Shown in pieces: positions 13,266 to 32,914 of a stretch of 64,000 nt of DNA. The notes under the pieces were generated by a model. That model ran no database searches and was not told the DNA's origin. It saw nothing but the letters and a program-made list of their open reading frames with translations. Each line of letters starts with the position of its first letter. Position 1 is the first letter of the stretch. Origin of the DNA: Candidatus Mycobacterium wuenschmannii (GTDB lineage: Bacteria > Actinomycetota > Actinomycetes > Mycobacteriales > Mycobacteriaceae); NCBI RefSeq assembly GCF_030252325.1, contig NZ_CP126981.1, forward strand, positions 3,844,001-3,908,000. The letters are read 5' to 3'. A program made the position numbers and the translations under genes.

Positions 13266-13276
13266 TCGCGCTTTAG

Positions 13277-13291
13277 GAGAATGCTATTCTT
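13277..13291. promoter_or_regulatory. Candidate TetR operator, site A (GAGAATGCTATTCTT)
   Basis: It contains a perfect AGAAT-gct-ATTCT inverted repeat just upstream of the crotonase/CoA-transferase/dehydrogenase operon. It matches two other sites in the island (14792-14806 and 22365-22379) on the pattern GAGAAYNNTRTTYT. Confidence 0.6.
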
Positions 13292-13315
13292 CTCGACCGC
13301 GCGGGCGCAACGGAA

Positions 13316-14119: not shown

Positions 14120-14128
14120 TGCTGCTCC

Positions 14129-16106: not shown

Positions 16107-17564
16107 TCAGGCCAATTGCCGGCGCAGTTCCGTCTTGAGCACTTTGCCGTAGCTGTTCTTCGGCAACTCGTCCACCACCAGATACCGCTTCGGGCGTTTG
16201 AATCGGGCGATACGGGCCAGCAGGTGCGCGTCGAGGTCGACGGGGTCCGCCGCCCCGACGATGAACGCCACGACGACCTCGCCCCACTCCTGGTCGGGTG
16301 CCCCGACCACGCACGCCTCGGACACGCCGGGGTGTTCGAGCAGTGCCTCCTCCACCTCGCGCGGGTAGATGTTGGACCCGCCACTGATCACGACGTCCTT
16401 CGACCGGTCGTGCAGCGTCAGGTAGCCGCGCGCGTCGAAGGAGCCCATGTCGCCGGTGCGCAGCCAGCCGTCGCGCAGCGTGTCCGCGGTGGCAGCGGGG
16501 TCACGCCAGTAGCCGCCCATCACAACGTCTCCGCGACAGACGATTTCGCCGATCTCGTCCGCTTCGGCCGGCGTGCCGTCGGCGCGTTGCACCGCGACGT
16601 CGGTGCCGGACCGCGGATAGCCGACCGATCCGAGAATCGCGTCGTCCGCGGTCTCGTAGTCGACGCGGCGCAACCCGGTGATCGTCATCGGCGCCTCACC
16701 CTGGCCGTAGATCTGGGTGAACACGGGGCCGAACGCCGTGAGCGCCTTCTTGATGCTGTCGACATACATCGGGCCGCCGCCGTAGACGATGGTCCGTAGT
16801 TTGCTCGGGCGCGGCCGGCCCGTCTCGACCACGCGCTGCACCATGGTTGGCGCCAGGAATGCGCTGCAGCCGGGGTGGTACTCGCAGAGGTCGAGAAAGT
16901 CCGATGGTTCGAATCCGCCGCGCTCCGAGATCACTTGGCGCGCACCGCGTGCGACGTAAGCCGGGATGTACAGGCCCGAGCCGTGCGACATCGGCGCGGC
17001 GTGGATCAGGCTGCAATCCTGGTCCGGCGCATCCATATCGGCAAGATGCGCGACCGTCATGGCCATCAGGTTGCGATGACTGAGCATGGCGCCTTTGGAG
17101 CGGCCGGTCGTGCCGCTGGTGTAGAACAGCCAGGCCAGCGTCGCGGGGTCGGTGCTCGGCGCGGCAGCGGGCGCAGAGTCAAATCTCACCGAGTACTGTT
17201 CGGAGTCAATGACTTCCGTCGACCCTGCCAGAGTGGTCGCGATTTTCGGCGACGCAAAGACGTGTGCGGCCTCGGCGTCGGCGAGGATCTGGGTCATCTC
17301 GCGGGGATGTAGCTTGTAGTTGATCGGTACCGCGACGCATTCGGCGGCCCAGATGCCGAACAACAACTCGACGATCTCCGGCCGGTTCTCGCTGGCAATC
17401 GCTATACGCGCGCCTGCAGCGTGGTCGCGGCGGATCGATCCGGCCAGGCGCATCGCCCGCTCGCGCAGTTCGCTCCAGGTGCAGCAACGTCGTTGCCCGT
17501 GATAGACCGCACCGTGATCGGGAAAGCGTTGCGCGGCTTGGTCGAGCAACGCAAACAGGTTCAC
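16107..17564 (-). CDS. Acyl-CoA synthetase (FadD-like, AMP-binding)
   Basis: 485-aa ANL-superfamily ligase. P-loop [16 protein letters not shown], aromatic motif [18 protein letters not shown], and the C-terminal catalytic lysine in [14 protein letters not shown] are all present and in order. It activates a carboxylic acid to its CoA ester via an acyl-adenylate. The GTG start overlaps the upstream SDR stop by GTGA. Together with the SDR (17561) and a second synthetase (18336) it forms a leftward operon behind GntR. Confidence 0.93.
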
Positions 17565-18334
17565 TCGGCTATCCACTCCGAGTTCAGCGCGTACTTCGAC
17601 AGGTACTTCGTCGAACTCCACCCACCGTCGACCACGATGGTCTGCCCGTTGATGAAACTGCCACCCGGCGAGCACAGGAACGCCACGGTGCTGGCTACGT
17701 CGTCGACCGTGCCGAGGCGCTGGTGCGGTGTCATCTCGACCTGCATTCGGCGAAACCGCGGATCCTGCAACCGCTCTTCTGTCATCGCGGTCTGGATGAC
17801 GCCGGGAGCGACGGCGTTGCAACGGATTCCGTGTGCGCCGTACTGGGCAGCGATGTGGGTGGTCAGCGCAGTCAGCCCGCCCTTGGCCGCCGAGTACGGC
17901 CCGCCGCGGAGACCGCCGACGACCGCGAACGTCGAGGTGATGTTGATGATCGCCGAGCCGGGCTTCATGTGCGGCAACACGTCTCGTGCGAGCCGGAACG
18001 GCGCCTTCAGCATGACATCGAGGAAGTAGTCCAGGGTGGCGTCGTCGGTGTCGTGCAGCGGCGTCGGGTTGCCCACCCCGGCGTTGTTGATCAGGAAGTC
18101 GACGTGGCCCCACTTTTCGATCGCGGCGAGGACGACGCGGGCCGGTCCGTCCCGGTCGGTCAGATCGATCGCCACGGTGGCGACGCGGTCGCGGTCGCCG
18201 ATCTCGGCTGCCAGTTCGTTCAGCCGGGTCTGGTTGCGGCCGGTGGCCAGCACGGCCATCCCGGCGTCGGCCAGCTTTTTCGCGCAGCCGAAACCGATTC
18301 CGCCGGTCGCCCCGGTCACGATCGCTACCTGCAT
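17561..18334 (-). CDS. SDR-family oxidoreductase
   Basis: 257 aa. Cofactor motif [23 protein letters not shown], Ser in [18 protein letters not shown], and the C-terminal [14 protein letters not shown]. It lies between two acyl-CoA synthetase genes in one leftward operon (1 bp from the upstream stop, GTGA overlap downstream), so it probably oxidises a hydroxyl on the same acid or CoA ester. Confidence 0.91.
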
Positions 18335-18335
18335 G

Positions 18336-19904
18336 TCATCCGTCCGTCGTTGTCAGGGCCGCGCGGATCTGGTGCTTGAGCACCTTCCCGGCGTCGTTTC
18401 TCGGTAGAGCGTCCCAGATGACTACCTGTTCGGGTGCTTTGAAGATAGCGACTCCGTGCTCCCGCAGGAAGACGCGAAGGCTGTCCACGTCGGGTTGGGG
18501 CTGGTCGTTGGGAACGACGACGGCGCAGGCCCGCTCGCCGGTGCGGGCATCGGGCAGGCCGACGATCGCGACTTCCGCGACGGCGGGATGGCTGATCAGG
18601 AGGTCCTCGATTTCCTTGGGCGCGATGTTCTCGCCGTTGCGGATGATCAGGTCCTTGGCGCGCCCGGTGACGACGAGATAGTCGTCGTCGACCCAGCGGC
18701 CCAGGTCGCCGGTGCGGAAATAGCCTGCTGTGTCAAATGATTGGGTCTCATCGGTGGTGTGCAGGTATCCGATCAGCATCTGCGGGCCGCGGGCAAGGAT
18801 CTCCCCGTCGTTGTGCAGCGCGATCTGCGCGAAGCCTGGGCGCCCGTCGGTGTCGGCGGCGCGTGCGGGCTCGTCGGGTGCGCCGACGGTGGTCACCGGG
18901 ACTTCGGTGGAGCCGTAGACGCGCGTGACGGCGGCACGCTCGAAATAATCTGCCGCCCTGCGGATCAGCGACGGCGAGACCGAGGCGCCGCCGCAGATGA
19001 ATAGTTTCAATTCTGGCAGCCGCGTTGCGGCACGCTCGGCCGCGGCGAGTAGTTGCTGGAGGAATGGGGTCGCGCCCGCGAGGTGGGTGCAAGCTTCCCG
19101 GCCGATGAGGCTCACCGCGGCGTCGGCATCCCAGCGGTCCATCAGCACGGCCGAAGTGCCTAACAGCAGCGGGCATTCGAACGCGTAGATGGAGCCGCCG
19201 ATGTGGGCGACCGGCGAGGGGACCAGGAACCGGTCACCGGGCCGCACTTGCCAGTGCTCACGCAACTGCGTGAGCAGAGCGTGTATCGAGTTATGGCTGT
19301 GCAGGACGCCTTTCGGCCTCCCAGTGGTCCCCGAGGTGTAAAGAATCATCCGCACCGCGTCGGGATCCAGCTCGGGCAGAACGGGATTCGGTGCCCCGGG
19401 CAGCGGCGAGTCGCCGCGAACCACGACTACCTCCGGCGGGTCGTCGAGTTTCGGCACGACCCGCTGCAACATCTCCGCGTAGTCGTAACGCCCGAACACC
19501 GCGGGCACGAAAACCATCCGGGTGTGCGCATCGCTGAGAATGAACTCCAGTTCGCGGTCACGCAGCGACGGCAGGATCGGGTTGATCACCATGCCGGCGA
19601 GTGTCGCCGCGAGGTAGATGACCGCGGCCTCATGCCAATTCGGCAGCATGAACGAGACCACGCTTCCCTGCGGCATCCGCTGCAGCATCGCCCCAGCGAG
19701 GGCCGTCGCCTGCTCGTGCAAGCCGCGGCAGTCGATCCGGTGCGCGCCGTCGACCAGCACCACCCGGTCGGGTGTGTCCCGGGCCGCGTCGGCGAGCGAA
19801 TCGGCGAGGGTTTCGCGCACCCACCAGCCCCGCGCGTAGGCGTCCGCAGCCCGCTCGTCGTCCCAGCGGACCGTCCGGCCGCCGATCACCCGTGTACTGG
19901 ACAT
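18336..19904 (-). CDS. Acyl-CoA synthetase (FadD-like, cyclohexanecarboxylate-CoA ligase type)
   Basis: 522 aa. P-loop [58 protein letters not shown] and the C-terminal Lys in [13 protein letters not shown]. The N-terminus ([19 protein letters not shown]) and the [20 protein letters not shown] region resemble synthetases for cyclic and branched acids more than long-chain FadD. A perfect 10-bp-arm inverted repeat inside the gene (19255-19276) is probably coding coincidence. It is 14 bp downstream of the GntR gene. Confidence 0.92.
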
Positions 19905-19918
19905 CGCTGCGTGTGAGG

Positions 19919-20656
19919 TTAGCCGCGCACTCGGCGCATCGTCATCGAGTGGCGAAAGCGCGACGCCGGATGCGTGTTGATCGTCAGCTGGGCCACCTCA
20001 CCGTCGGACGTCGCGTAGGTGCGGTGCACCTCGAGTCCGGGGCTGCCCGCCTCGACACTGAGCTGCTCCGCCAGGGGCGACGCGATCAACACCGCGGCGA
20101 TCTCCTGGCGCACCTCGACGATGCTCACCCCGAAAATGTCTTCGACCAAGGGGAAGATCGGCCCGGCGTGCCGCGGCAGTAGCCGGCCGACACCGGCGAA
20201 GGTGCGGTTGATGTAGTACTCGGTGCGGCAGACCGGAAACTCGCCGCCGTCAATCCGGCGAAAACCCATGACTGCCAACCACTCTTCGCCCGCATCGAGT
20301 CCGGTGCGGGCGGCGAGTTCGTCGTCGACGCGCGTCATGCCGGTCGATTCGATGGCGAACTGTGCGCCGGTGGCGAAGGCCAGCAGGTCGTTGATCGACA
20401 CGACGTCCTGGACGTAGGAATCCGACGACGGGCGCGGCACCACCAACGTGCCCGCCCGCGGCCGCGATGCAACGAGGTTGTCGTCGCGCAGGCGCCGCAG
20501 CGCCTCCCGGACGGTGTACCGGCTGACCGAAAAGCGTTCGCACAGTTGGTATTCGGTGGGGAGCTGCGATCCGACGGGGTAGACGCCGTCGACGATCTCC
20601 TTGCGCAGCGCGCGGGCGACCTGCAGATAGCGGTGGTCGGCGGTGTCAGCCATCAC
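19919..20656 (-). CDS. GntR-family regulator (HutC subfamily, UTRA domain)
   Basis: 245 aa. N-terminal winged HTH: YLQVARALRKEIVDGVYPVGSQLPTE is longer than needed, but PVGSQLPTEYQLCERFSVSR and YTVREALRRLRDDNLV are the GntR signature. The UTRA effector domain follows (about residues 95-240), with YYINRTFAGV and the terminal beta strand EVHRTYATSDGEVAQLTI. It starts at GTG 20656 or ATG 20653, overlapping the upstream beta-propeller gene by 8-11 bp. Likely operators lie at 22304 and 22400. Confidence 0.92.
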   Translation of the reverse strand: MMADTADHRYLQVARALRKEIVDGVYPVGSQLPTEYQLCERFSVSRYTVREALRRLRDDNLVASRPRAGTLVVPRPSSDSYVQDVVSINDLLAFATGAQFAIESTGMTRVDDELAARTGLDAGEEWLAVMGFRRIDGGEFPVCRTEYYINRTFAGVGRLLPRHAGPIFPLVEDIFGVSIVEVRQEIAAVLIASPLAEQLSVEAGSPGLEVHRTYATSDGEVAQLTINTHPASRFRHSMTMRRVRG

Positions 20657-22253
20657 GACCGTCCGGCCGGAAAGCCAGCAGGCTGCCGTCGGCGTCGGCG
20701 GAGACGTACAGCGTGCCGTCGGGACTCGCGGCGATACCGGCGAACGGGCCCTGCGGACCCGAGAACGGCGGCATGCCCTTCAGCGGTTTGGGGACCACCC
20801 CGGGGTTCGCGCCGAGTGGCAACCCGGTCGCGATCGTGTGCCGCGATCCATCGTCGAGATTCACCTCGACCAGTTCCCGGGCGCCGGGGTCGACGACGTA
20901 CAGCCGCCTTCCCTGCGTCAAAAGCCCCTGTGGGCAACCGAAATCGTCCGCAACAGTCTGCGGTCCGGCACCGGTGAGCGTGACGACCCGGCCGGCGCCG
21001 GACTCGGACACCAGCCATCCGCCATCGGGTGCGAGCGCGACCCCGATCGGTTTGTTCAGGCCGGACGCGATCGCGTCGACCCGTCCGTCACGAACCGATA
21101 CCACGCGCCCGGTGCCGAGCTCGGCGGCCACGACCGTCCGGTCGGCGGCCAGCGCCACCCCGTACAGCTGGTCGAATCCGTCTGCCAGCACGTCGGTTTC
21201 GCCATCGGCCGGTCGGTAGTGGGCGATCTGGCCGCCGGAGGTGGTGACCACGAACTCGCCCGGACCGGCCGGGGCCAACCCGCGCAGGAAGCCTGGATAT
21301 CCGGGCGTGAACAGCATGCCGACCGTCTGGAGGCTGTGGTCGGGGCGCAGCACGTAGAAGTAAGTGCCGTCCGCGACGTACAGGCTGCCGTCGGGATCCA
21401 CCGCGAGATCGAGCGGCCAGTTCAGCCCGCCCGGCAGCAGCGCCGAGGTGGCCCCGTCGGGCAGGATCTCGGTGATTTCGCCGGTGAAGTTGGAGACGAA
21501 CAGCCGATCCCCGACAAATGTGCAATTGTCCAGTCCGGGGCTGAGATTCGCGAGCACGGTCTGCGATCCGGTGCGCGGATCGATGCGCAGCACCTGTCCG
21601 CTGTGTACCTGCGTCGAGACGATGTGGCCGGCCGCGTCGAACTTCACCGAGTCGGGCACGCCCAGGCCGGTCGCGACGGTCTCCGGCTCACCGCCGTCGA
21701 GGCCGATGCGCCAGATTTCGTTGGCGCCCATCACCGGGAAATACAGGAGGCCGTCCGGGCCGACCTCCATCGCGTTGGGCGACGGGATGTTCTCCAGCAG
21801 CACCCGCGGCGCGCCGCCGTTGAGGTCGAATTCGTACAGCCGCCCGCCCTCGCGGCACTCGCCGACGAACAACCGGCCCTGGTGCACGGTGATGCCGTTG
21901 GCCGACGGGATGTCCGCGCGCAGCACCCGGGTGTGGCCGTCGACGCCGCGGACGCTGACCCGGCCGTCCATCACCTCGGTGGCATAGAGGTCGCCGTTCG
22001 GTCCAAAGGCCGCATCGTCGGGCGCGATGATGTCGCCACCCTTGGCGCTGATGACCTCCAATTCGCCGGTGTCCACGTCGAGAGCGCTGATCTGGCTGCC
22101 GGTCACCTGCGCGATGTAGATCCGGCCGTCGGGGCCGGTTCGCAGCCCGTTGGCGCCGAACAATCTGCTGGGCGGGGTGAGTCGCTGCATGCGCCAGCCC
22201 GTGGCGAGGGTAGGCGACACCCCTGCGCCGGAGCGGCTTTCGTGCAGCAACAT
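20646..22253 (-). CDS. SMP-30/gluconolactonase-like beta-propeller protein
   Basis: 535 aa. It has a series of NHL/SMP-30-type blades: NGLRTGPDGRIYIAQV, DDAAFGPNGDLYATEV, NAMEVGPDGLLYFPV, LDLAVDPDGSLYVADG, IGVALAPDGGWLVSES. No signal peptide is seen, so it is cytosolic. Proteins of this fold include lactonases and strictosidine-synthase-like enzymes. Next to a Baeyer-Villiger monooxygenase operon, hydrolysis of a lactone is an attractive but unproven role. It is the first gene of the leftward GntR/FadD operon and divergent from the 22415 operon. Confidence 0.85.
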   Translation of the reverse strand: MLLHESRSGAGVSPTLATGWRMQRLTPPSRLFGANGLRTGPDGRIYIAQVTGSQISALDVDTGELEVISAKGGDIIAPDDAAFGPNGDLYATEVMDGRVSVRGVDGHTRVLRADIPSANGITVHQGRLFVGECREGGRLYEFDLNGGAPRVLLENIPSPNAMEVGPDGLLYFPVMGANEIWRIGLDGGEPETVATGLGVPDSVKFDAAGHIVSTQVHSGQVLRIDPRTGSQTVLANLSPGLDNCTFVGDRLFVSNFTGEITEILPDGATSALLPGGLNWPLDLAVDPDGSLYVADGTYFYVLRPDHSLQTVGMLFTPGYPGFLRGLAPAGPGEFVVTTSGGQIAHYRPADGETDVLADGFDQLYGVALAADRTVVAAELGTGRVVSVRDGRVDAIASGLNKPIGVALAPDGGWLVSESGAGRVVTLTGAGPQTVADDFGCPQGLLTQGRRLYVVDPGARELVEVNLDDGSRHTIATGLPLGANPGVVPKPLKGMPPFSGPQGPFAGIAASPDGTLYVSADADGSLLAFRPDGRDG

Positions 22254-22303: not shown

Positions 22304-22316
22304 TTGGTCTGGACAA
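22304..22316. promoter_or_regulatory. Candidate GntR operator, site 1
   Basis: TTGGTCTGGACAA resembles the perfect palindrome at 22400-22413 with one half degenerate. It lies about 50 bp upstream of the beta-propeller gene start, in the divergent region. Confidence 0.5.
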
Positions 22317-22399: not shown

Positions 22400-22413
22400 T
22401 TTGTCCGGACAAA
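22400..22413. promoter_or_regulatory. Candidate GntR operator, site 2 (TTTGTCCGGACAAA)
   Basis: A perfect 14-bp palindrome ending 1 bp before the GTG start of the 22415 SDR. A GntR protein bound here would block initiation of the rightward operon. TTGTC/GACAA half-sites are common for GntR regulators. Confidence 0.7.
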
Positions 22414-22414
22414 C

Positions 22415-23263
22415 GTGGGCAATAATCCACTGAACCTGCAGGGTCGGGTGGTCATCGTGGCCGGTGCGGCCGGTGGCGGTATCGGAACCACCGTCGCCCG
22501 GATGCTCGCCGAGGCCGGGGCGACGGTCGTCGCCGTCAGTCGCGGTAAAGCCAACCTCGACACGCACATCTCGCCGTTGGTCGAACAGGGCCTGCCGATC
22601 GTGCCCGTCGCCGCGGACGTCGCCACCGAGGACGGCGTGGCGACCGCCGTCGAGCGGGCGAAGGCGGCCGACGGCGAACTGCACGGGCTGGTCAACGTCG
22701 CCGGCGGGGCCGGGCCGCAGACCTGGATGCCGTCGACCCGGGTCACCCGCAGCGACTGGCGCGACCTGTTCGCCGCGAATCTGGAGACCGCGTTCTTCAT
22801 GAGTCAGGCGGTGGCCGCGGAGCTGAAAGTGCAGAACCGCCGGGGCTCGATCGTGTCGATCTCGTCGATCAGCGGAATGAACACCGCGCCGTTCCACATC
22901 GCCTACGGCACCGCCAAGGCGGCGATCGCCGCGATGACCCGCACGATGGCCGTCGAACTTGCTGCCGACGAGATCCGGGTGAACGCCGTCGCACCCGGTG
23001 TCACCGCGACACCGGCATCGCTCACCTACGTGGACGACGACGCCGAGCGTGACCGCACGGCCATCGCGATGGGTCGCCGCGGCCGACCCGAGGAGATCGC
23101 CGGCGCCATCCTGTTCCTGTTGTCGGACCTGTCCAGCTACATCACCGGCCAGACGCTGCTCGTCGACGGCGGCCTGGACCTCAAGTGGACGCACCTGGGC
23201 GCCGACAACACCTCACTCTTCCTCAAGGACGACTCGTTTCGAGACGCGATTAGGAGACCGTGA
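22415..23263 (+). CDS. SDR-family oxidoreductase, first gene of the Rieske/BVMO operon
   Basis: 282 aa. The cofactor motif AGAAGGGIGTTVARML has an extra Gly; the active site is SISSISGMNTAPFHIAYGTAK (Ser, Tyr, Lys in place). The C-terminus extends about 25 residues past the usual VDGGLD end. The GTG start touches a perfect palindrome, leaving no room for a Shine-Dalgarno sequence, so the mRNA may have a very short leader. The stop overlaps the start of the Rieske gene. Confidence 0.9.
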   Translation: MGNNPLNLQGRVVIVAGAAGGGIGTTVARMLAEAGATVVAVSRGKANLDTHISPLVEQGLPIVPVAADVATEDGVATAVERAKAADGELHGLVNVAGGAGPQTWMPSTRVTRSDWRDLFAANLETAFFMSQAVAAELKVQNRRGSIVSISSISGMNTAPFHIAYGTAKAAIAAMTRTMAVELAADEIRVNAVAPGVTATPASLTYVDDDAERDRTAIAMGRRGRPEEIAGAILFLLSDLSSYITGQTLLVDGGLDLKWTHLGADNTSLFLKDDSFRDAIRRP

Positions 23264-24639
23264 TGACCGATCTAGCCAAAGATGTGAATTCCCAAGCAGC
23301 GGAGGAACTCTCACGACCGATGACCATCGGGGTCGAGGCCTACATCTCCGAAGACTATGCGCGCGCCGAGCGCGACAAGCTCTGGCGCAAGGTCTGGCAG
23401 CAGGTCGGTCGTGTCGAGGAACTACCCGAGGTCGGTAGCTACCTGACCTACGACATCCTCGACGACTCGATCATCGTGGTGCGCAGCGGTCCGAACGAAT
23501 TTCACGCCCACCACAACGTCTGCATGCACCGCGGCCGGCGGTTGATCGACACTCCCGACGGCGCCAAGAATGCCTGCGCCCGAACGCGAAAATCCTTTGT
23601 CTGCGGCTTTCATGGCTGGACCTACGGCCTGGACGGTGCCTGCACCCACATCCGTGAACAGCAGGACTGGCAGGGCGCGCTGACCGCCGACAGCACGCGT
23701 CTCCGACCGGTCAGGGTCGAGACCTGGGGCGGCTGGTTGTGGATCAACATGGACCCCGACTGCGAACCCCTGGCCGACTTCCTGTTTCCCGCCGCCAAGA
23801 TTCTTGATCCGTTCGGCCTGGAGAACATGCGCTACAAGTGGCGCAAATGGCTGTCGTTCGACTGCAACTGGAAGGTCGCGCTGGAGGCCTTCAACGAGAC
23901 CTACCACGTCTTCACCACGCACCCTGAGTTCAACAAGTTCGGGGAATTCAAGGGCTGGGCGAAAGCACAAGGGCGGCATAGTCATATCGGCTACGACGCT
24001 CCCGAGGACATGGAGGCCACCAAGTCCAAGATCCGCCTGGGCACCGGTGCGGACCCGCGCATCTCGACCGCGGAGATGCAGGTCTACACGATGGAGGAGA
24101 CCAACGCCACCACCACCAAGACCTTGGTGAACGCGGCGAAGCGGCTGGTCGACGAACTACCCGAGGGGACGCCGGCCGACAAGGTCCTCGAGCATTGGCT
24201 GGCGTCGGCCCGTCGCGACGACGAGGCCCGCGGGGTGGTCTGGCCGACGATTCCCGCCGACATTCTCGGGCAGGCCGGGACCGCGTGGCAGATCTTCCCC
24301 AACTTCCAAATCGGCCAGGGCCTGACCAGCGCGCTCTGTTACGGCGCGCGGCCGCACCCCAGCTACAACCCGGACAAGTGCATCTTCGAGGTGTCGGTTT
24401 TCGAGCTGTACCCGAAAGGCGAAGAGCCGCAGACGGAGTGGGAGTACACGCCGGTCGGCGATCCGCGGTGGCGGTCGGTGCTGCCGCAGGACTTCTCGAA
24501 CATGGCCGCCGTCCAGCAGGGCATGAAGTCGCTCGGCTTCCCGGGCACCAGGCCCAACCCGTACCGCGAGCGCAGCACCGTGAACCTGCACTACCAGTTG
24601 TCGAAGTACATGGGAACCGGCGAACCACAGGAGCTTTGA
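23263..24639 (+). CDS. Rieske non-heme iron oxygenase, alpha subunit
   Basis: 458 aa from ATG 23263 (AGGAG 6 bp upstream; GTG 23260 is the alternative). The Rieske cluster ligands are CMH (in VCMHRGRR) and CGFH (in FVCGFHGWTYGLDG). They are 24 residues apart against about 15-17 in most families, due to an insert with an extra Cys (NACARTRK). The mononuclear iron site is ETYHVFTTH (E/D-x2-H-x4-H). It hydroxylates a substrate with O2 and electrons from a reductase; no ferredoxin or reductase gene is nearby, so electrons must come from elsewhere. Coupled to the SDR upstream and the BVMO downstream. Confidence 0.92.
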   Translation: MTDLAKDVNSQAAEELSRPMTIGVEAYISEDYARAERDKLWRKVWQQVGRVEELPEVGSYLTYDILDDSIIVVRSGPNEFHAHHNVCMHRGRRLIDTPDGAKNACARTRKSFVCGFHGWTYGLDGACTHIREQQDWQGALTADSTRLRPVRVETWGGWLWINMDPDCEPLADFLFPAAKILDPFGLENMRYKWRKWLSFDCNWKVALEAFNETYHVFTTHPEFNKFGEFKGWAKAQGRHSHIGYDAPEDMEATKSKIRLGTGADPRISTAEMQVYTMEETNATTTKTLVNAAKRLVDELPEGTPADKVLEHWLASARRDDEARGVVWPTIPADILGQAGTAWQIFPNFQIGQGLTSALCYGARPHPSYNPDKCIFEVSVFELYPKGEEPQTEWEYTPVGDPRWRSVLPQDFSNMAAVQQGMKSLGFPGTRPNPYRERSTVNLHYQLSKYMGTGEPQEL

Positions 24640-24644
24640 GATCG

Positions 24645-26501
24645 ATGACAACGTCCGAGGCGGCCTGCGGGCCCACCGACGTACCGCAGGACGTCGACAT
24701 CGACGCGACGCGGGCCAAGTATGCCCACGAGCGCGACAAGCGTCTCCGTAAGGATGCCGGTGCACAGTACCTCGAACTCGAGGGCGACCTGGCCGACCTC
24801 TACGAGGTGGACCCGTACACCCCGGTCGCCGACCGCGCCCCGATCAAAGAAGAGATCGAGGTGGCCGTCCTCGGCGGCGGCTTCGCCGGATTGCTATCGG
24901 GCGCCTACTTGAAAAAGGCCGGCGTACACGATGTTCGGGTCATCGACATGGCGGGCGACTTCGGCGGCGTGTGGTACTGGAACCGCTTCCCGGGCATCCA
25001 GTGCGACAACGACGCCTACTGCTACATCCCCATGCTCGAGGAACTCGACTTCCTGCCGAGCAAGAAGTTCGCCGACGGCGCCGAGATCTTCGCGCACTGC
25101 CAGGCCATGGGCAAACACTTCGACCTCTACGACGGCGCGATCTTCTCGACGCAGGTCGAGACCATGCGCTGGGACGACAGCGATAAGCGCTGGCGGCTGA
25201 CCACCAACCGCGGCGACGACATCCGGGCGCGGTTCGTGGTGATGGCGCAGGGCTCGTACAACAAGCCGAAACTGCCCGGCATCCCAGGTATCAAGGAGTA
25301 CCTGGACGCCGGCGGCCACGCGTTCCATTCCGCGCGCTGGGACTACGACTACACCGGCGGCGATGCGACCGGCGGCCTGCACAAGCTCGCCGACAAGCGG
25401 GTCGCACTGGTCGGCACGGGTGCCACCGGCGTGCAGCTGGTGCCGCATCTGGGCCGGGATGCCCAGCAGCTCTTCGTATTTCAGCGCACGCCGTCGTCGG
25501 TGGACATGCGCGCCAACACGCCGACCGACCCGGCCTGGGCGGCGACGCTGCAGCCGGGTTGGCAGGAGGAGCGCAAGCGCAACTTCCACAACTGGTCGCC
25601 GTTCGTCGGGGTGGTCTTCGGCGAACCGGATCTGGTGTGCGACTTCTGGACCGAGTTGGGCCGCAACATGACCGCCCGGATCGCCGCCAGCCCGGATCCC
25701 GCCTCACTGGGCATCGAGCAGATCATGGCGATCCGAGAGGGCGAGGACTACAAGATCATGGAGCGGCTGCGGCAACGGGTGGCCGACCTGGTCGCCGACC
25801 CCGAGACCGCCGAGGCGCTCAAGCCGTACTACCGATTCATGTGCAAGCGACCATGTTCCAGCGAGACGTACCTGCCGGCCTTCAACCTGCCCAACGTGAC
25901 GTTGGTGGACGTATCGGAGTCCAAGGGTGTGGAACGGCTGACGGAGAAGGGCATCGTCGCCAACGGCGTTGAGTACGAGGTGGATTGCGTCGTATTCGCC
26001 AGTGGATTCGAGATCTCGACCGAGATCAGTCGGCGCTTCGCGGTCGACGTCATCGAAGGTCGCGACGGACTGTCACTGTTCGACTATTGGCACGACCGCT
26101 ACCAGACGTTGCACGGCATGACGACCCGCGGATTCCCAAACCAGTTCTTCACCGGCTTCATCCAGGGCGGCGTATCGGCCAACACCACCGCGATGTTCGA
26201 GCAACAGGCCGAGCACATCGCCTACATCATCGCCGAAGCGCAGAAACGCGGTGCGACCACCGTCGAACCCAGCCAGGAGGGCCAGGACGGCTGGGTCAAG
26301 ACGGTCGCGGAACTCGCGATCGACAATTCGGCATTTGAGATGTCCTGTACTCCGGGCTATTACAACAACGAGGGCGCAGGCGGCGGCAAGGACAACGGCG
26401 CGTTCCTTGGTGACTTCTACTCGCCGGGCTTCTACGCATTCGGCGATCTGATCGCCGAGTGGCGGGCCAGCGGCGACTTGGAAGGGCTCGAGATTTCGTG
26501 A
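24645..26501 (+). CDS. Flavin-containing monooxygenase, Baeyer-Villiger type
   Basis: 618 aa. FAD-binding VAVLGGGFAGLLSGAYLKK, the second Rossmann motif VALVGTGATGVQLVPHL, and an intervening AFHSARWDYDY in place of the exact FxGxxxHxxxW fingerprint (H, W and the spacing are kept). CDNDAYCYIPML and WYWNRFPGIQCD match cyclohexanone/phenylacetone-type BVMOs with N-terminal extension. It probably inserts oxygen next to a ketone to give a lactone or ester using NADPH and O2. The ATG follows GGAG. The stop overlaps the next SDR start by GTGA. Confidence 0.92.
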   Translation: MTTSEAACGPTDVPQDVDIDATRAKYAHERDKRLRKDAGAQYLELEGDLADLYEVDPYTPVADRAPIKEEIEVAVLGGGFAGLLSGAYLKKAGVHDVRVIDMAGDFGGVWYWNRFPGIQCDNDAYCYIPMLEELDFLPSKKFADGAEIFAHCQAMGKHFDLYDGAIFSTQVETMRWDDSDKRWRLTTNRGDDIRARFVVMAQGSYNKPKLPGIPGIKEYLDAGGHAFHSARWDYDYTGGDATGGLHKLADKRVALVGTGATGVQLVPHLGRDAQQLFVFQRTPSSVDMRANTPTDPAWAATLQPGWQEERKRNFHNWSPFVGVVFGEPDLVCDFWTELGRNMTARIAASPDPASLGIEQIMAIREGEDYKIMERLRQRVADLVADPETAEALKPYYRFMCKRPCSSETYLPAFNLPNVTLVDVSESKGVERLTEKGIVANGVEYEVDCVVFASGFEISTEISRRFAVDVIEGRDGLSLFDYWHDRYQTLHGMTTRGFPNQFFTGFIQGGVSANTTAMFEQQAEHIAYIIAEAQKRGATTVEPSQEGQDGWVKTVAELAIDNSAFEMSCTPGYYNNEGAGGGKDNGAFLGDFYSPGFYAFGDLIAEWRASGDLEGLEIS

Positions 26502-27409
26502 GCGAGTTGCGGTTCGACGACCGCGTCGCCGTCGTCACCGGCGCCGGCCGCGGGTTGGGGTGCGCCTACGCACGACTGCTCGCCGAGCGCGGGGCGAAGG
26601 TCGTCGTCAACGACCCTGGCGGCGGTCTCGCCGGCGACGGGGCGGACTCCGCGCCGGCCGAGCGGGTGGTCGATGCCATCCGAGCGGACGGCGGCGAGGC
26701 CGTCGCGTGCACCGGGTCGGTGGCCACCAGTGACGGCGCCGCCGCGATCATCGGCACGGCGCTGGAGCACTACGGCCGCATCGACGCTTTGATACACAAC
26801 GCCGGCAACGTGCGCCGCGCCCCGCTCGCGGAGATGTCATCCGAGGACTTCGACGCGGTGCTCGACGTTCATCTGCGCGGCGCATTCAACGTTGTGCGAC
26901 AGGCTTTCCCGGTCATGACCGGGGCTGGCTACGGGCGGATCGTGCTCACCTCGTCGATTGGCGGACTGTACGGCAACCACGAGGTCGCCAATTACGCCGC
27001 GGCCAAGGCCGGCGTGATCGGGTTGTCCAACGTCGTCGCGCTGGAGGGTGCGCCCTACGGCGTGGCGTGCAACGTGATCGTGCCCGCGGCGGTCACCAGG
27101 ATGGCGGAAGGCATCGACACCTCGGCCTACCCGCCGATGGGACCGGAGCTGGTGGCGCCCGTGGTCGGCTGGCTGGCACACGAGTCCTGCTTGGTGACCG
27201 GTGAGATGTATGTCGCGTTGGCGGGCCGGGTGGCCCGGGCGGTCATCGCCGAAAGCCCCGGCGTGTACCGGCCGGCATGGACGGTCGAGGACGTCGCCGG
27301 CCATCTCGATGAGGTTCGGAACATGCAGGCGCCGTTGACCTTTCCCGTCGTACCCGACGGCCACAATGAGCACATTCGGTACAGCTTCGGATTGGCGAAC
27401 GGTGGCTAG
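26498..27409 (+). CDS. SDR, multifunctional-enzyme-type (3-hydroxyacyl-CoA dehydrogenase-like)
   Basis: 303 aa. The opening VAVVTGAGRGLGCAYARLLAERGAKVVVND and the following long acidic loop (PGGGLAGDGADSAPAERVVD) are typical of the SDR domain of peroxisomal-type MFE-2 proteins; key motif TGAGRGLG and the VNDPGG turn. The active site has Ser in TSSIGGLYG and YAAAK. A C-terminal extension follows in place of the usual ending. GTG 26498 overlaps the BVMO stop. Expected reaction: (3R)-hydroxyacyl-CoA to 3-ketoacyl-CoA. Confidence 0.9.
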   Translation: MSELRFDDRVAVVTGAGRGLGCAYARLLAERGAKVVVNDPGGGLAGDGADSAPAERVVDAIRADGGEAVACTGSVATSDGAAAIIGTALEHYGRIDALIHNAGNVRRAPLAEMSSEDFDAVLDVHLRGAFNVVRQAFPVMTGAGYGRIVLTSSIGGLYGNHEVANYAAAKAGVIGLSNVVALEGAPYGVACNVIVPAAVTRMAEGIDTSAYPPMGPELVAPVVGWLAHESCLVTGEMYVALAGRVARAVIAESPGVYRPAWTVEDVAGHLDEVRNMQAPLTFPVVPDGHNEHIRYSFGLANGG

Positions 27410-28565
27410 CCCCGCGGGCCCGCTGGCCGGGGTGCGGGTGGTCGATCTGACTGCGATGGTAATGGGACCGTACTGCACGCAGATTATGGCCGACATGGGC
27501 GCCGATGTCATCAAAGTCGAACCGCCGCAGGGAGATAACACCCGCTACATCTCTGTCGGGCCAGCGCCCGGCATGAGCGGGGTATTCGTCAACGTCAACC
27601 GCGGCAAGCGCGGCATAGTGCTCGACCTGCAGACCGACGCCGGCAAGCGTGCGTTGCGGGCTCTCGTAGAGACCGCCGATGTGTTCATCCACTCGATGCG
27701 CGCCAAGGCGATCGCCAAACTCGGCTTCGGTTACGACGACGTCGCCGAGATCAATCCGGGTGTCGTGTACACCAACTGCTACGGATACGGACGCCGGGGA
27801 CCGGACCGCGACCGCCCCGCCTACGACGACACCATCCAGGCCGAATGTGGTTTGCCCGCAGTGCAAGAGCAGCTGACCGGCCAAGCCGATTTCGTCGGCA
27901 CCATCATGGCCGACAAGGTCGCCGGCCTGACTGCGCTGTACGCCACGATGATGGCGCTGTTCCATCGGCAGCGCACTGGCGAGGGTCAAGAGGTCGAGGT
28001 CGCCATGTTCGAGACCATGGCGTCGTTCATCCTCGTCGAACATGCCAACGGCGCATTGTTCGATCCGCCGCTGGGACCCGCGGTGTATCCGCGCACCGTC
28101 GCGCCCAACCGGCGCCCCTACCGCACCAGTGACGGCCATGTCGCGGCGCTGATCTACAACGACAAACACTGGAACGCATTCATCGACGCGGTCCGGCCGC
28201 CCTGGGCCAGCGACCGGTACGCCACCCTGGAACAGCGTGCCCGCGAGATCGACACCGTCTACGGACTTCTTGCCGAGACGATGAAAGAACGCTCCACCGC
28301 CGAGTGGCTGGAGTTGTTGCGCGAACTCGAGATACCGGCCGCGCCGCTGAACACCCCCGGCGCGCTCTTCGACGATCCGCACCTCAACGCCGTCGGGATG
28401 TTCGAGACCGTCGAGACCCCGCACGGACCGGTGCGCTTCCCGGGCGTGCCCACCTGGTTCTCGCGGACACCAGGCAGCGTCGCGGGACCGGCGCCGGAAC
28501 TCGGCGAACACACCGCCTCAGTCCTCGACCAACTGGGCTTTGCTCACGAAATAGATTGCAAATAA
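27366..28565 (+). CDS. CaiB/BaiF family CoA-transferase
   Basis: Up to 399 aa. VRVVDLTAMVMGPYCTQIMADMG-ADVIKVEPPQGDNTR is the family opening (key: GPYCTQ and KVEPP), then VNRGKRGIVLDLQ, TNCYGYGRRGPDRDRPAYDD and EVEVAMFETMASF. Unlike the protein at 11269, it looks like a true CoA-transferase (formyl-CoA or carnitine-CoA type) more than a racemase. The start is uncertain: ATG 27366 gives a 44-bp overlap with the SDR gene, GTG 27402 only 8 bp. It is followed 14 bp later by a ThDP enzyme gene, a pairing known from oxalate metabolism (formyl-CoA transferase with oxalyl-CoA decarboxylase). Confidence 0.9.
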   Translation: MSTFGTASDWRTVASPAGPLAGVRVVDLTAMVMGPYCTQIMADMGADVIKVEPPQGDNTRYISVGPAPGMSGVFVNVNRGKRGIVLDLQTDAGKRALRALVETADVFIHSMRAKAIAKLGFGYDDVAEINPGVVYTNCYGYGRRGPDRDRPAYDDTIQAECGLPAVQEQLTGQADFVGTIMADKVAGLTALYATMMALFHRQRTGEGQEVEVAMFETMASFILVEHANGALFDPPLGPAVYPRTVAPNRRPYRTSDGHVAALIYNDKHWNAFIDAVRPPWASDRYATLEQRAREIDTVYGLLAETMKERSTAEWLELLRELEIPAAPLNTPGALFDDPHLNAVGMFETVETPHGPVRFPGVPTWFSRTPGSVAGPAPELGEHTASVLDQLGFAHEIDCK

Positions 28566-28579
28566 AGGAGTTTCCCATC

Positions 28580-30292
28580 ATGACGGTGCCCGTCTACAAG
28601 CGCATCCTCGACCTGTTCGAGGCCGAAGGGGTGAACACCCTGTTCGGCATCCCCGACCCCAACTTCGTGCACATGTTCGCCGAGGCCGACGCGCGTGGAT
28701 GGTCGGTGGTCGCCCCGCACCACGAACTCAGCGCGGGCTTCATGGCCGAGGCGGCCTCGCGGATGACCGGTCGGCCCGGTCTGTGCATCGGCACGCTGGG
28801 CCCGGGCATGGCCAACATCGCGGGTGCGATCCAGTGCGCGAAAGTGGAGAACTCGCCGGTGATCTTCCTCGGCGGTCAGCGGGCCCGCATCACCGAACGC
28901 CGGGTGCGGCGCGGCCGTATCCAATTCGTCCGCCAGGAACCGCTTTTCGCAGCCTCGGTCAAATACAGCGCCTCCATCGAGTACGCCGACCAGACCGACG
29001 AGATCATCCACGAAGCGATCCGCCAGGCGATGTCCGGCACGCCCGGTCCCGTCTATGTCGAGTACCCGTCGCATGTCATTCTCGAAGAGCTCGATGTGGC
29101 AGAACCGTTGCCGCCCAACCGGTATCGGCTTGTCAATCAGGGCGCCGGGGCACCCGAGGTCGCCGAGGCCGTGAAACTCATCCGCGAAGCGAAGAGCCCG
29201 ATCCTGCTGGTGGGCCACGGCGTGCACACCTCGCGCACCGGTGCCGCGGTGAAGGAGCTCGCCGACCTGATGGCCTGCCCGGTCATCCAGACCTCCGGGG
29301 GCACGTCCTACATCCCGGGGCTGCAGGAGCGAACCTTTCCCTACCTGTTCTCCCCGGCCGCCAACGAGGCGGTCGAGGAATCCGACCTGTGCGTCGCGTT
29401 GGGAACCGAACTCGGCGAGCCCATGCACTACGGCCGGACCCAGCACTGGGCGGGCAACGACGAGAACCGTAAGTGGGTGTATGTCGAGCAGGACCCGGCC
29501 GCGATCGGTGTCAACCGCCAGTTCGACGTGCCGCTGGTGGGGGACCTGCGCGGCGTCGTGCCGCAACTCGTCGAAGCGCTTCGGGACACGCCGCGCGACC
29601 CGTCCGCCAACCTCGACAAGCTCGTCAACGCTGACGCCGAGGAACTCGCGCAGCTTGCGGTCAGTGCGCCCTCGGGACGGTCGCCGATCCACCCGGCGCG
29701 CTACGTCGTCGAGTCCACCAGGGCGTTCAACGATCTCGAGGACGGCATCCTGGTCCGCGACGGTGGCGCGACCGTCATTTTCCAATGGACGTACTCGCAG
29801 TCCAAGCCGCGCGACGTCATCTGGAACCAGAACTTCGGTCACCTCGGCACCGGTTTGCCCTACGCGGTGGGCGCCTCGGTTGCCGAGGGTGGCAAGCGGC
29901 CGGTGATGCTGCTGACCAGTGACTCGGCTTTTCTCTTTCACATCGCCGAGCTGGAAACCGCTGCACGCCTCAACCTTCCGCTCGTCTGCGTAGTGGGTGT
30001 CGACCATCAGTGGGGCCTCGAAGTGGGCGTCTACAAGCGCACGTTCGAACAACCGTCGCCACAGCCCGGCGTGCACTGGAGCAAGGATGTCCGGATGGAC
30101 AAGATCGCCGAGGGCTTCGGCTGCCACGGCGAGTACGTGGAGAAGGAAGACGAGATCGGACCTGCCATCGCCCGCGCCTACGCCAGTGGGAAGGTCGGCG
30201 TGGTGCACGTGTGCATCGACCCGAAGGCCAACTCCGAGGAGATGCCGAAATACGACCGATTCCGCACCTGGTACGCCGAAGGCACCCAGTAA
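28580..30292 (+). CDS. Thiamine-diphosphate-dependent lyase/decarboxylase (acetolactate-synthase/HACL-like)
   Basis: 570 aa with the three ThDP-enzyme domains: N-terminal PYR domain with the activating Glu in APHHELSAGFMAEAASRM, central domain (VGHGVHTSRTGAAVKELA) and C-terminal PP domain. The metal motif is unusual: the expected GDG...NN reads TSDSAF...GVDHQWG, so the Asp ligand is kept, the flanking Gly are not, and the second Asn is Asp. ATG follows AAAGGAG. Linked to a CoA-transferase and an aldehyde dehydrogenase, it might cleave a 2-hydroxyacyl-CoA to an aldehyde and formyl-CoA, or decarboxylate a 2-oxo acid. Confidence 0.88.
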   Translation: MTVPVYKRILDLFEAEGVNTLFGIPDPNFVHMFAEADARGWSVVAPHHELSAGFMAEAASRMTGRPGLCIGTLGPGMANIAGAIQCAKVENSPVIFLGGQRARITERRVRRGRIQFVRQEPLFAASVKYSASIEYADQTDEIIHEAIRQAMSGTPGPVYVEYPSHVILEELDVAEPLPPNRYRLVNQGAGAPEVAEAVKLIREAKSPILLVGHGVHTSRTGAAVKELADLMACPVIQTSGGTSYIPGLQERTFPYLFSPAANEAVEESDLCVALGTELGEPMHYGRTQHWAGNDENRKWVYVEQDPAAIGVNRQFDVPLVGDLRGVVPQLVEALRDTPRDPSANLDKLVNADAEELAQLAVSAPSGRSPIHPARYVVESTRAFNDLEDGILVRDGGATVIFQWTYSQSKPRDVIWNQNFGHLGTGLPYAVGASVAEGGKRPVMLLTSDSAFLFHIAELETAARLNLPLVCVVGVDHQWGLEVGVYKRTFEQPSPQPGVHWSKDVRMDKIAEGFGCHGEYVEKEDEIGPAIARAYASGKVGVVHVCIDPKANSEEMPKYDRFRTWYAEGTQ

Positions 30293-30320
30293 GCGCTGCG
30301 ACTAAGGAAGAGTGCAAGCC

Positions 30321-31757
30321 ATGCGCGAATACCTGAAGTTCTACGTCGACGGACACTGGGTCGACCCGTTGCAGCCCAACCCTTTCGACGTGGAGAACCC
30401 GGCAACCGAGCAGTTGTCCGGGAAGATCTCGCTCGGCACTGCGGCCGACCTCGACGTGGCGGTACATGCCGCGCGGCGCGCCTTCGCGAGTTGGTCGCAG
30501 TCAACCCGCGAGGAGCGCCTCGATCTGTTGCAGGCGATCCTCGTCGAGTATCAGAAGCGTTCCGATGACCTCGCCGCGGCGGTCACCGACGAGATCGGCG
30601 CCCCAACCTCTTTGGCTGCGGGGGCGCAGGTCTTCCTCGGCATCGGGCACCTGAGCACAGCGATCGAGGCGCTGAAGAACTTCTCGTTCGAGGAACGCAA
30701 GGGCGAGAGTCTGATCGCCAAAGAGCCAATCGGTGTCTGCGGGTTGATCACACCGTGGAACTGGCCGATCAACCAGGTGGCGGTCAAGGTCTATCCGGCG
30801 TTGGCAACCGGCTGCACCGTCGTCCTCAAACCGTCTGAGGTGGCGCCGTTTTCGCCGTACATCTTCGCCGAGATCCTCGATGCCGCGGGCGTGCCGGCCG
30901 GTGTGTTCAACCTCGTCAACGGTGACGGCCCCGGGGTGGGGGAGGCAATCGCGAGCCATCCCGACATCGATCTGGTGTCGTTCACCGGGTCGACCCGTGC
31001 CGGCATCGAGGTGGCCAAGCTTGCAGCTCCGACCGTGAAGCGGGTGACTCAGGAACTCGGCGGCAAGAGCCCCAACATCGTGCTCGACGACACCGCCTTC
31101 GCCACCAGCGTCAGCGCGGGTGTGGCCAACATGATGCCCAACTCGGGCCAGAGCTGTAATGCGCCGACCCGGATGCTGGTCCCGAAATCTCGCATGGGCG
31201 AAGCGATTTCCGCCGCCCGAGAGGCCGCCGAGAAAGTCACCGTCGGACCTCCGGACGCGGGAACAACGATCGGGCCGGTGGCGTCGCGGGCGCAGTACGA
31301 GAAGGTCCAGCGCCTGATCCAGAAGGGTGTCGACGAGGGCGCGACGCTGGTCGTGGGCGGTCCGGGCCGACCGGACGGTCTGGACACGGGCTACTACGTC
31401 AAGCCGACCGTCTTCGCAGACGTCACCAACGACATGACCATCGCGCGCGAAGAGATCTTCGGGCCGGTGCTGTGCATCCTCGGCTACGACGACATCGACG
31501 ACGCGGTCCGGATCGCCAACGACACCGAGTACGGCCTCGCCGGCTTCGTGTCCGGGGCCGACCTCGATGCGGCCCGCCAGATCGCCCGCCGAATCCGTGC
31601 GGGCTGGGTGACGATCAACCACGCCTTTGACATGAACGCACCCTTCGGGGGTTACAAGCGCAGCGGCAATGGCCGGGAGTGGAGCGAATTCGGTTTTCAT
31701 GAATACCTGGAAGTGAAAAGCGTTTTGGGCTACACCCCGGAGGGAGCCACGCAGTGA
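30321..31757 (+). CDS. Aldehyde dehydrogenase
   Basis: 478 aa of the NAD(P)+-dependent ALDH superfamily. Proline-flanked WNWPINQ, coenzyme motif SFTGSTRAGIEV, general-base Glu in TQELGGKSPNIV, nucleophile Cys in NSGQSCNAPTR and EEIFGPVLCIL are all in place. It oxidises an aldehyde, probably the product of the ThDP enzyme or of the neighbouring alcohol dehydrogenase, to the acid. ATG 30321 is 9 bp after GGAAG; GTG 30312 is too close to it. Its stop overlaps the GTG of the ADH gene. Confidence 0.93.
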   Translation: MREYLKFYVDGHWVDPLQPNPFDVENPATEQLSGKISLGTAADLDVAVHAARRAFASWSQSTREERLDLLQAILVEYQKRSDDLAAAVTDEIGAPTSLAAGAQVFLGIGHLSTAIEALKNFSFEERKGESLIAKEPIGVCGLITPWNWPINQVAVKVYPALATGCTVVLKPSEVAPFSPYIFAEILDAAGVPAGVFNLVNGDGPGVGEAIASHPDIDLVSFTGSTRAGIEVAKLAAPTVKRVTQELGGKSPNIVLDDTAFATSVSAGVANMMPNSGQSCNAPTRMLVPKSRMGEAISAAREAAEKVTVGPPDAGTTIGPVASRAQYEKVQRLIQKGVDEGATLVVGGPGRPDGLDTGYYVKPTVFADVTNDMTIAREEIFGPVLCILGYDDIDDAVRIANDTEYGLAGFVSGADLDAARQIARRIRAGWVTINHAFDMNAPFGGYKRSGNGREWSEFGFHEYLEVKSVLGYTPEGATQ

Positions 31758-32914
31758 AATGCCGCGCCGCGGTGATCCGCGGTGTCGGTATGGACTGGGA
31801 GATCGAAGAGATTGATCTCGATCCGCCCCGCGCCGGTGAGGTGCTGGTGCGGATGGTCGTCGCCGGCGTCTGCCACTCGGACGACCACCTCTTCACCGGC
31901 GACGTGGTGCCGACAGCCGAAGCGCTGGCCGCGAGCGGGCAACCCGCACCGGACTGGTTCCCGCTACTCGGTGGCCACGAGGGCGCCGGTGTCGTCGCGG
32001 AAGTCGGGCCGGGAGTGACCGCCGTCCAGCCCGGCGACCACGTCGCGCTGTCCTTCATTCCCGCGTGCGGCAGCTGCCGGTTCTGCGTCGACGGGCAGAG
32101 TTACATCTGCGACATCGGCGCCAGCCTCTTCGTCCGCGAGATGCCGACCGACGGAACCTGCCGCCGCCATCTCGGCGACGAAAACCTGCTCGCCTACGGA
32201 CAACTCGGCACGTTCGCCGAGTATGCGGTGTTGTCGGAGAAGTCCGTCATCAAGATCGATGAGGCGATTCCGTTTCACGCCGCGTCGCTCGTCTCGTGCG
32301 GGGTCAGCACCGGCTGGGGTTCGGCGACGGTGTCCGCGGAGACCGAACCCGGCGACACCGTGGTCGTCATCGGCGCCGGCGGCGTCGGGATGAACGCGGT
32401 GCAGGGCGCGCGCGCCGTCGGCGCCAAATACGTCGTCGCCGTGGATCCGGTTGAGTCGAAGCGGGATTCGGCGAAGATCTTCGGCGCCACGCACAGCGCC
32501 GGATCCGCGGAGGCGGCGATACCCGTGGTGCGCGAGATGACGGGCGGCCTGATGGCCGATCGCGTCGTCATCTGCCCCGGGGTGGTGCATGTCGATGTGA
32601 TCCCGCAGGCGATGGCGTTGCTGCGCAAAGGCGGGATCTGCGTGCTCACCGGCATCACCCCGTACACCGAACCGCCGGTGCCAATGGTCCTGCAGGAGAT
32701 GACGCTGTCGGCCAAGCAACTCCGCGGCGCGCTTTACGGCGGAATGAATCCGCGCACCAGCGTGCCGATGCTGCTGTCGCTGTACCAGGCGGGCGCGTTG
32801 AAGCTCGACGAACTGGTCACCAAGCACTACCAACTCGACCAGATCAACGAAGCTTTCGTCGACCTGCGTGAAGGACGCAACATCCGCGGAATCATCGATT
32901 TCGCGGGTGCCTGA
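31754..32914 (+). CDS. NDMA-type zinc alcohol dehydrogenase (Rxyl_3153 family)
   Basis: 386 aa. Catalytic zinc ligands in GVCHSDDHLF and LLGGHEGAGVV; structural zinc Cys in CGSCRFCVDGQSYIC; coenzyme motif VIGAGGVGMNAVQGA. The sequence between (DIGASLFVREMPTDGTCR) and the 386-aa length match the actinobacterial N,N-dimethyl-4-nitrosoaniline-dependent group, which hold NAD(H) tightly and are linked to the redox cofactor mycofactocin. No mycofactocin genes lie in the window. Last gene of the 22.4-32.9 kb operon. Confidence 0.9.
   Translation: MKCRAAVIRGVGMDWEIEEIDLDPPRAGEVLVRMVVAGVCHSDDHLFTGDVVPTAEALAASGQPAPDWFPLLGGHEGAGVVAEVGPGVTAVQPGDHVALSFIPACGSCRFCVDGQSYICDIGASLFVREMPTDGTCRRHLGDENLLAYGQLGTFAEYAVLSEKSVIKIDEAIPFHAASLVSCGVSTGWGSATVSAETEPGDTVVVIGAGGVGMNAVQGARAVGAKYVVAVDPVESKRDSAKIFGATHSAGSAEAAIPVVREMTGGLMADRVVICPGVVHVDVIPQAMALLRKGGICVLTGITPYTEPPVPMVLQEMTLSAKQLRGALYGGMNPRTSVPMLLSLYQAGALKLDELVTKHYQLDQINEAFVDLREGRNIRGIIDFAGA

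Follow-up and report, generated by a model that had tools for sequence, protein, structure and literature searches.

The 64,000-nucleotide stretch of Candidatus Mycobacterium wuenschmannii DNA described here (contig NZ_CP126981.1, positions 3,844,001 to 3,908,000; hereafter the window) is part of a single closed 5.1-Mb genome and carries a divergent gene cluster, the core of which is also present on Rhodococcus and Sphingobium plasmids and which likely has an operator for its own GntR regulator. We predict that the cluster is a cassette that acts on a bulky ketone or terpenoid, converting one of its ring carbons to a lactone, opening the lactone, and trimming the product, and we put the chances of this prediction being right at about even. 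Many genomes of the genus have the unit, which is tightly ordered and likely equipped with a dedicated switch. If the prediction is true, an undescribed ring-opening route and a new group of thiamine diphosphate (ThDP)-dependent lyases are present in a large proportion of mycobacteria.

The rightward arm (22415-32914) consists of eight open frames, all on the forward strand and with high third-position GC. In order, they code for a predicted alcohol dehydrogenase of the short-chain dehydrogenase/reductase (SDR) type that would feed the third enzyme (SDR1; 22415..23263; PF13561, 198.2 bits), a Rieske oxygenase alpha subunit (23260..24639; Rieske and Ring_hydroxyl_A domains), a predicted type I Baeyer-Villiger monooxygenase (BVMO; 24645..26501), a dehydrogenase of the PRK07791 group (SDR2; 26498..27409; 215.3 bits against a cut-off of 373), a CaiB-type family III CoA-transferase (27402..28565, alternative start 27366; PF02515, 388.4 bits), a ThDP-dependent enzyme of an unnamed subfamily (28580..30292; PF02776, PF00205, and PF02775, all over cut-off), an aldehyde dehydrogenase (ALDH; 30321..31757, alternative start 30312; PF00171 [Aldedh], 501.5 bits), and an NDMA-dependent alcohol dehydrogenase (ADH; 31754..32914; TIGR03989, 492.4 bits, above the cut-off of 440) that is linked but mobile. 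The mechanical open reading frame (ORF) start of the BVMO at 24195 is judged too early, with 24645 likely, and SDR2 starts with a GTG that overlaps the BVMO stop. A sequence-only reading had proposed eight same-strand genes with junctions that mostly overlap or are shorter than 30 bp, and this is borne out, the junctions being, in order, -4, +5, -4, -8 (or -44), +14, +19 (or +28), and -4 bp (range, -44 to +28 bp); Pfam and NCBIfam profile scores also confirm the gene families that it named. Its single transcription unit is very plausible as a prediction, but the boundaries differ from the eight genes drawn.

Gene order in mycobacteria and beyond

Conservation was assessed in 80 loci, the best of 423 confirmed relatives retrieved in a single search that had the Rieske protein as query, and the sample therefore favors units that hold the Rieske gene. 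All 80 are mycobacterial by name, and the nearest, from Mycobacterium sp. 1245111.1, has a Rieske gene 96% identical to that in the window. A window gene was scored as present in a locus at an identity of at least 60% by tblastn, and the ortholog sets used below exclude matches with less than 85% coverage, with less than 45% identity, or with stops. Within these loci, found as they were through the Rieske gene, the gene order is conserved far beyond chance. SDR1 and the Rieske gene are neighbors in all 79 loci with SDR1, the Rieske gene and the BVMO in 71 of 80 (a luciferase-like flavin enzyme follows the Rieske gene in 8 of 80), the BVMO and SDR2 in 72 of 79 (a TauD-type enzyme follows the BVMO in 5 of 79), and SDR2 and CaiB in 73 of 76; SDR2 itself is present in 76 and CaiB in 73 of the 80. 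CaiB is directly followed by the ThDP gene in 39 of 73 loci and by an acyl-CoA dehydrogenase in 30, and acyl-CoA dehydrogenase genes lie between CaiB and the ThDP gene in 25 of the 65 loci with both, with up to four genes in this insert in the loci inspected in detail. The ThDP and ALDH genes adjoin in 39 of the 65 ThDP loci, which is every locus extending 1.7 kb past the ThDP gene. ALDH and ADH are neighbors in only 4 of 42 loci with ALDH. Relative to the ligase arm, ADH is on the left in 32 of the 80 loci, on the right in 4, and outside the stretch in 44.

The conserved core consists of seven genes, coding for the beta-propeller protein of the leftward arm, SDR1, the Rieske oxygenase, the BVMO, SDR2, the ThDP enzyme, and ALDH. 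The set of eight genes originally drawn is therefore not retained as the unit of conservation: CaiB and ADH fail to accompany the core, and the propeller gene belongs to it. Fifteen of the 80 loci have no ThDP gene in the stretch: three are from Mycolicibacter (L053, L070, and L081), in which ALDH directly follows SDR2 and neither ThDP nor CaiB is in the stretch, and several of the 12 others are short contigs or end early. Among the same-genus genomes listed, 22 of 29 have the ThDP gene.

The leftward arm, on the reverse strand, starts with a double beta-propeller protein that is a candidate lactonase (20646..22253), followed by a GntR regulator with a UTRA domain (19919..20656; PF00392, 72.3 bits, and PF07702, 54.3 bits; 73 of 80 loci) that does not reach the cut-off of the HutC equivalog (86.5 versus 220 bits). 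Beyond these are an AMP-binding CoA ligase (18336..19904; 72 of 80 loci), for which both the best NCBIfam model (PRK06087, 341.6 bits) and the cyclohexanecarboxylate-CoA ligase model (325.9 bits) score below cut-off, an SDR (17561..18334; PF13561, 208 bits; 72 of 80 loci), and, at the end of the arm, a second AMP-binding CoA ligase (16107..17561; PF00501, 223.8 bits; at least 60% identity in 56 of 80 loci). The true start of this last gene is probably at about 17545-17560, and the mechanical ORF, which extends further, to 18113, has an overlap with the SDR gene. The order SDR-ligase-GntR-propeller is kept in all 72 loci holding all four, and the propeller protein, the GntR regulator, the two CoA ligases, and the SDR are the divergent arm of the same unit. 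The left neighbors had been put forward as pathway partners, and the synthetases and the propeller protein do belong, as this arm, but close copies of the acyl-CoA dehydrogenase and crotonase are seen with the unit only in one sister locus (L008). The acyl-CoA dehydrogenase, CaiB, crotonase, SDR, and TetR genes at 9993-14776 were dropped as members, with unit-linked close copies found for the acyl-CoA dehydrogenase and crotonase alone and in that locus alone, as judged on 10-kb flanks that often end short of these genes. To the right of the operon, an AT3-SGNH acyltransferase (33184-35295) is weakly related to SucT (121.6 versus 1275 bits) and has a copy of at least 60% identity in 34 of the 80 loci.

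Within the order, 27 of 249 genomes, from four genera, have a match to the ThDP enzyme at an E value of 1e-100 or better; one match is a 183-residue piece. All seven core genes occur together on plasmids of Sphingobium RAC03 and V4, on a plasmid of Rhodococcus USK13, and in three further outgroup genomes (G032, G037, and G046); the region of another (G055) has the core without the BVMO. The outgroup stretches have no CaiB above 34% identity and no match to ADH, and close CaiB copies, among the 80 loci and these stretches, are confined to Mycobacterium sensu lato. The core genes on the alphaproteobacterial plasmids are 52 to 73% identical to those of the window, which indicates that the core has likely passed between phyla by horizontal transfer. 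In a 14-row tree of ThDP enzymes, the RAC03 copy groups with those of the window and L008 (support, 97/98), and the M. branderi plasmid copy falls outside this group (84/81, not a starred fork); the tree gives no direction of transfer because Sphingobium has a single row and the identity of the RAC03 copy (73%) is about that of the M. branderi copy (74%).

We note several features of these distant copies. The ALDH gene of the RAC03 plasmid is in two pieces (L107:28719-30501) and that of V4 is a single frame, and the module may be decaying in RAC03. Alkyl-sulfatase-like and sulfotransferase-like genes lie near both Sphingobium copies (L107:37046-39471 and L111:8361-10798; annotated as such in RAC03, and called in V4 from a similar start sequence and place), and a sulfated substrate is possible. 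Genome G236 has a split unit, with GntR-propeller and CaiB-acyl-CoA dehydrogenases-enoyl-CoA hydratase-ThDP in one place and operator-SDR1-Rieske elsewhere (L098 and L132), and in Nonomuraea a relative of the BVMO (50%) adjoins a 35% relative of the propeller protein.

A candidate operator between the two arms

The gap of 161 bp between the propeller and SDR1 genes has two palindromic sites, TGGTCTGGACAA at 22305..22316 and, 96 bp from it, the perfect palindrome TTGTCCGGACAA at 22401..22412, which ends 2 bp before the annotated start of SDR1. Exactly two cores of the GTCNGGAC type are present in 69 of 72 loci (the other 8 of the 80, without a close divergent pair, were left out), spaced by 96 bp in 48 loci, 95 bp in 11, and 97 bp in 10. 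Strict sites number 67 in the gaps and none elsewhere in the 72 loci, and relaxed sites elsewhere number 5 in 1.5 Mb. The perfect palindrome is present in 31 of 60 genomes of the genus and adjoins SDR1 in 29 of 30 loci (one per genome, with the window's own genome excluded), the exception being in G002. The two palindromes are thus likely the operator of the cluster's own GntR, the presumed repressor of the divergon, and this candidate operator offers a direct way to the inducer, and hence to the substrate.

Sites and regulator were also compared elsewhere. Seven outgroup loci yielded no GntR (six with all seven core genes and one, L091, with six), and none of them has a strict site; L098 has a GntR and no strict site. 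In M. branderi (L110), the sites are present and no GntR lies within the 38 kb examined; the unit is rearranged there, with ThDP-ALDH apart from SDR1 and a perfect site 128 bp upstream of the ThDP gene. A near-perfect site in the same stretch is upstream of a P450 gene (L110:22310-23560), which is followed by TauD and VOC genes, and these may be further members of the regulon. In the window's own genome, a second perfect site, at 2530140, is inside a called frame, and the pattern TNGTCNGGACAA occurs at eight places (10 matches, compared with 2 for the reversed-pattern control), two of which are in the divergent gap; of the other six, three are in called frames (L100, L101, and L106) and three between frames (L099, L102, and L103). 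One of these, the near-perfect TGGTCCGGACAA (L102:1501), is about 315 bp upstream of a frame (1828-2763) whose product we take to resemble AurF-type diiron oxygenases.

The unit has a regulator gene to itself, and most genomes have a single perfect operator, which looks like a response to a single inducer; in addition, the plasmids with the core genes are from bacteria of soil, sand, and algal cultures. Both points suit a detoxification or modification cassette that would oxidize and open a toxic plant, fungal, or host compound with no use for growth. In relatives, however, the module has an ABC uptake system close by, as well as genes for CoA ligases, CaiB, acyl-CoA dehydrogenases, and an enoyl-CoA hydratase. 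These indicate carbon use, and we consider detoxification unlikely.

Enzymes of the unit and the predicted route

The Rieske enzyme has an intact Rieske motif and 2-His-1-carboxylate site, with C88/H90, C115/H118, H216/H221, and D411 in all 89 orthologs. Glu213 aligns with a Glu of carnitine monooxygenase, a position that presumably has the bridging role. The enzyme fails the model for the glycine betaine monooxygenase GbcA (NF058607), at 120.3 bits versus a cut-off of 670.

The BVMO was compared with the sequence criteria for type I enzymes set out in PMC9836352, namely, two GxGxx[G/A] motifs and the fingerprints [A/G]GxWxxxx[F/Y]P[G/M]xxxD and FxGxxxHxxxW[P/D]. Both GxGxx[G/A] motifs and the first fingerprint are in all 86 orthologs; the second is strict in 63 and present in all 86 when F is optional and W[P/D/N] is accepted, and in the window it reads AGGHAFHSARWD, with A in place of F. 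By these motifs, the protein is classed as a type I BVMO, and it is related to pentalenolactone D synthase and to the protein of PDB entry 5mq6. Its best NCBIfam match is PtlE, but at 670 bits it is well short of the cut-off of that equivalog (NF045818; 1100 bits) and is not assigned to it. Relatives of the BVMO are also on plasmids of tomato Sphingobium (47% identical), and a role for these in tomatine metabolism found no support, a text search of PMC10653915 giving no mention of a monooxygenase.

The propeller protein has the SGL domain and the beta-propeller fold of SMP-30/gluconolactonase-type lactonases, and its N-terminal propeller resembles lactonases; Asn119, Asn160, Asp201, and Asp242-Asn243, residues considered for a possible catalytic metal site, are invariant in an alignment of 25 sequences. 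A Foldseek comparison with the PDB has no lactonase among the matches listed (best 50).

The ThDP enzyme has the three TPP domains, the catalytic Glu, and the metal-binding residues of its superfamily, with Glu49, Asp448, and Asp475 in all 60 orthologs; we take Glu49 to be catalytic and Asp448 and Asp475 to bind the metal. The idea that a metal ligand is missing was dropped because the AlsS row also has Asp at that position. In the 14-row tree, which has no 2-hydroxyacyl-CoA lyase (HACL) row, the enzyme is sister, on a long stem, to three rows on the oxalyl-CoA decarboxylase (OXC) side (95/94). A true OXC or HACL is rejected on score (OXC, 212.6 versus 557; TIGR03254, 190 versus 739.4; HACL, 159.1 versus 600) and on its place outside the OXC rows.

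The sister position in the tree and the adjacency of ThDP and ALDH recommend alpha-oxidation, in which CaiB or a ligase would make a 2-hydroxyacyl-CoA, the ThDP enzyme would split it to an aldehyde and formyl-CoA, and ALDH would give the shortened acid, with the oxygenases acting on a branched or ring-bearing acid. CaiB near the ThDP gene also recalls frc-oxc of Escherichia coli, and the gene for the actinobacterial HACL is reportedly associated with alcohol and aldehyde dehydrogenase genes (PMC7176365). The ThDP enzyme, however, scores only 132 to 178 bits against oxalyl-CoA decarboxylases and against lyases in the PDB that belong to this branch, compared with 408 to 1262 bits for those proteins against E. 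coli Oxc, and is under the OXC and HACL cut-offs; CaiB directly precedes it in only the 39 of 73 loci noted above, and the outgroup stretches have no close CaiB. Alpha-oxidation of this form is thus possible, but we do not favor it. We also consider it rather unlikely that the ThDP enzyme founds a subfamily of C-C lyases in a mobile ring-opening cassette, taking one carbon off as formyl-CoA (or CO2) after the Baeyer-Villiger opening and passing an aldehyde to ALDH. The system would then couple ring cleavage to a bacterial equivalent of the alpha-oxidation of peroxisomes and would be shared between mycobacteria and sphingomonads.

For the ring-to-lactone cassette that we prefer, we infer the steps from protein families, gene order, and analogy. 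The Rieske enzyme would hydroxylate a ring carbon (CH2 to CHOH), SDR1 would oxidize the alcohol to a ketone, the BVMO would insert oxygen to form a lactone, and the propeller protein would hydrolyze this to a hydroxy acid. The order of these steps is taken from the hydroxylase-SDR-BVMO set of the pentalenolactone cluster and the BVMO-hydrolase pairs of Sphingobium AntQ-1. SDR2 (with ADH where present) may then oxidize the freed hydroxyl, and CoA could be attached by the CoA ligases or, in mycobacteria, by CaiB, although this activation may also come after the ThDP and ALDH steps. The ThDP enzyme would cleave a C-C bond adjacent to an alpha-hydroxy or alpha-keto group to release an aldehyde, ALDH would convert this to an acid, and the acyl-CoA dehydrogenases that are in the same unit in many relatives would carry on beta-oxidation. 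Degradation of a ring ketone through a Baeyer-Villiger step, as the sequence-only reading had it, fits this route. The best-fitting substrate is a bulky ketone of polycyclic or terpenoid type, a guess that draws on the kin of the BVMO and on the series of acyl-CoA dehydrogenases; paired acyl-CoA dehydrogenases are linked to steroid-like CoA esters.

Comparison with known systems

The combination of enzymes had been described as one without a nameable pathway, and no matching pathway was found; none of the titles and abstract openings listed from the open-licence PMC literature, coverage that mostly leaves out subscription journals, describes the cluster. The ThDP enzyme recalls two partial precedents. 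The frc-oxc-yfdV-yfdE oxalate locus of E. coli also has CaiB-family transferases near a ThDP-dependent CoA enzyme, but the ThDP enzymes are 26% identical and CaiB is not constant beside ThDP here. PDB chain 7pt1 ("lyase"), which we take to be the actinobacterial HACL, matches the ThDP enzyme at 130.5 bits. That HACL resembles our system in its associated dehydrogenase genes, but it is distant in sequence and acts on a small tertiary acid, and Baeyer-Villiger chemistry is not mentioned in the text of PMC7176365.

For the BVMO, the best PDB match is 5mq6 (378.8 bits, nearly full length), titled "Pyridine nucleotide-disulfide oxidoreductase-like protein," which is presumably the polycyclic ketone monooxygenase. 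The pentalenolactone/neopentalenolactone cluster likewise has three enzymes that act at a ring carbon, with functions as annotated: a hydroxylase, an SDR, and a BVMO (we take the short names to be PtlH, PtlF, and PtlE, respectively). The window BVMO and a Streptomyces protein with the annotated function of PtlE share 45.7% identity over 604 residues. This shared set and the PtlE match would suit a biosynthetic cluster for a lactone-bearing natural product, but a Pfam scan of 20 window proteins (9993-35292) matched no terpene cyclase, and relatives add acyl-CoA dehydrogenases and uptake genes; we regard biosynthesis as highly improbable. The pentalenolactone SDR is only 28.7% identical to SDR1 over 195 residues, and hydroxylation in that pathway is by a 2-oxoglutarate enzyme, whereas here this role would fall to the Rieske enzyme. 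The window unit also differs in its additional ThDP enzyme, ALDH, CoA ligases, and propeller protein, and no cyclase is seen. Anthraquinone degradation in Sphingobium AntQ-1 differs in its aromatic substrate, and the main text of PMC9836352 mentions neither Rieske enzymes nor thiamine. A BVMO followed by a hydrolase is nonetheless proposed there to open a central ring, and its genes, among them both a type I and a luciferase-like type II BVMO, are carried on a plasmid, as are the Sphingobium copies of the core described here.

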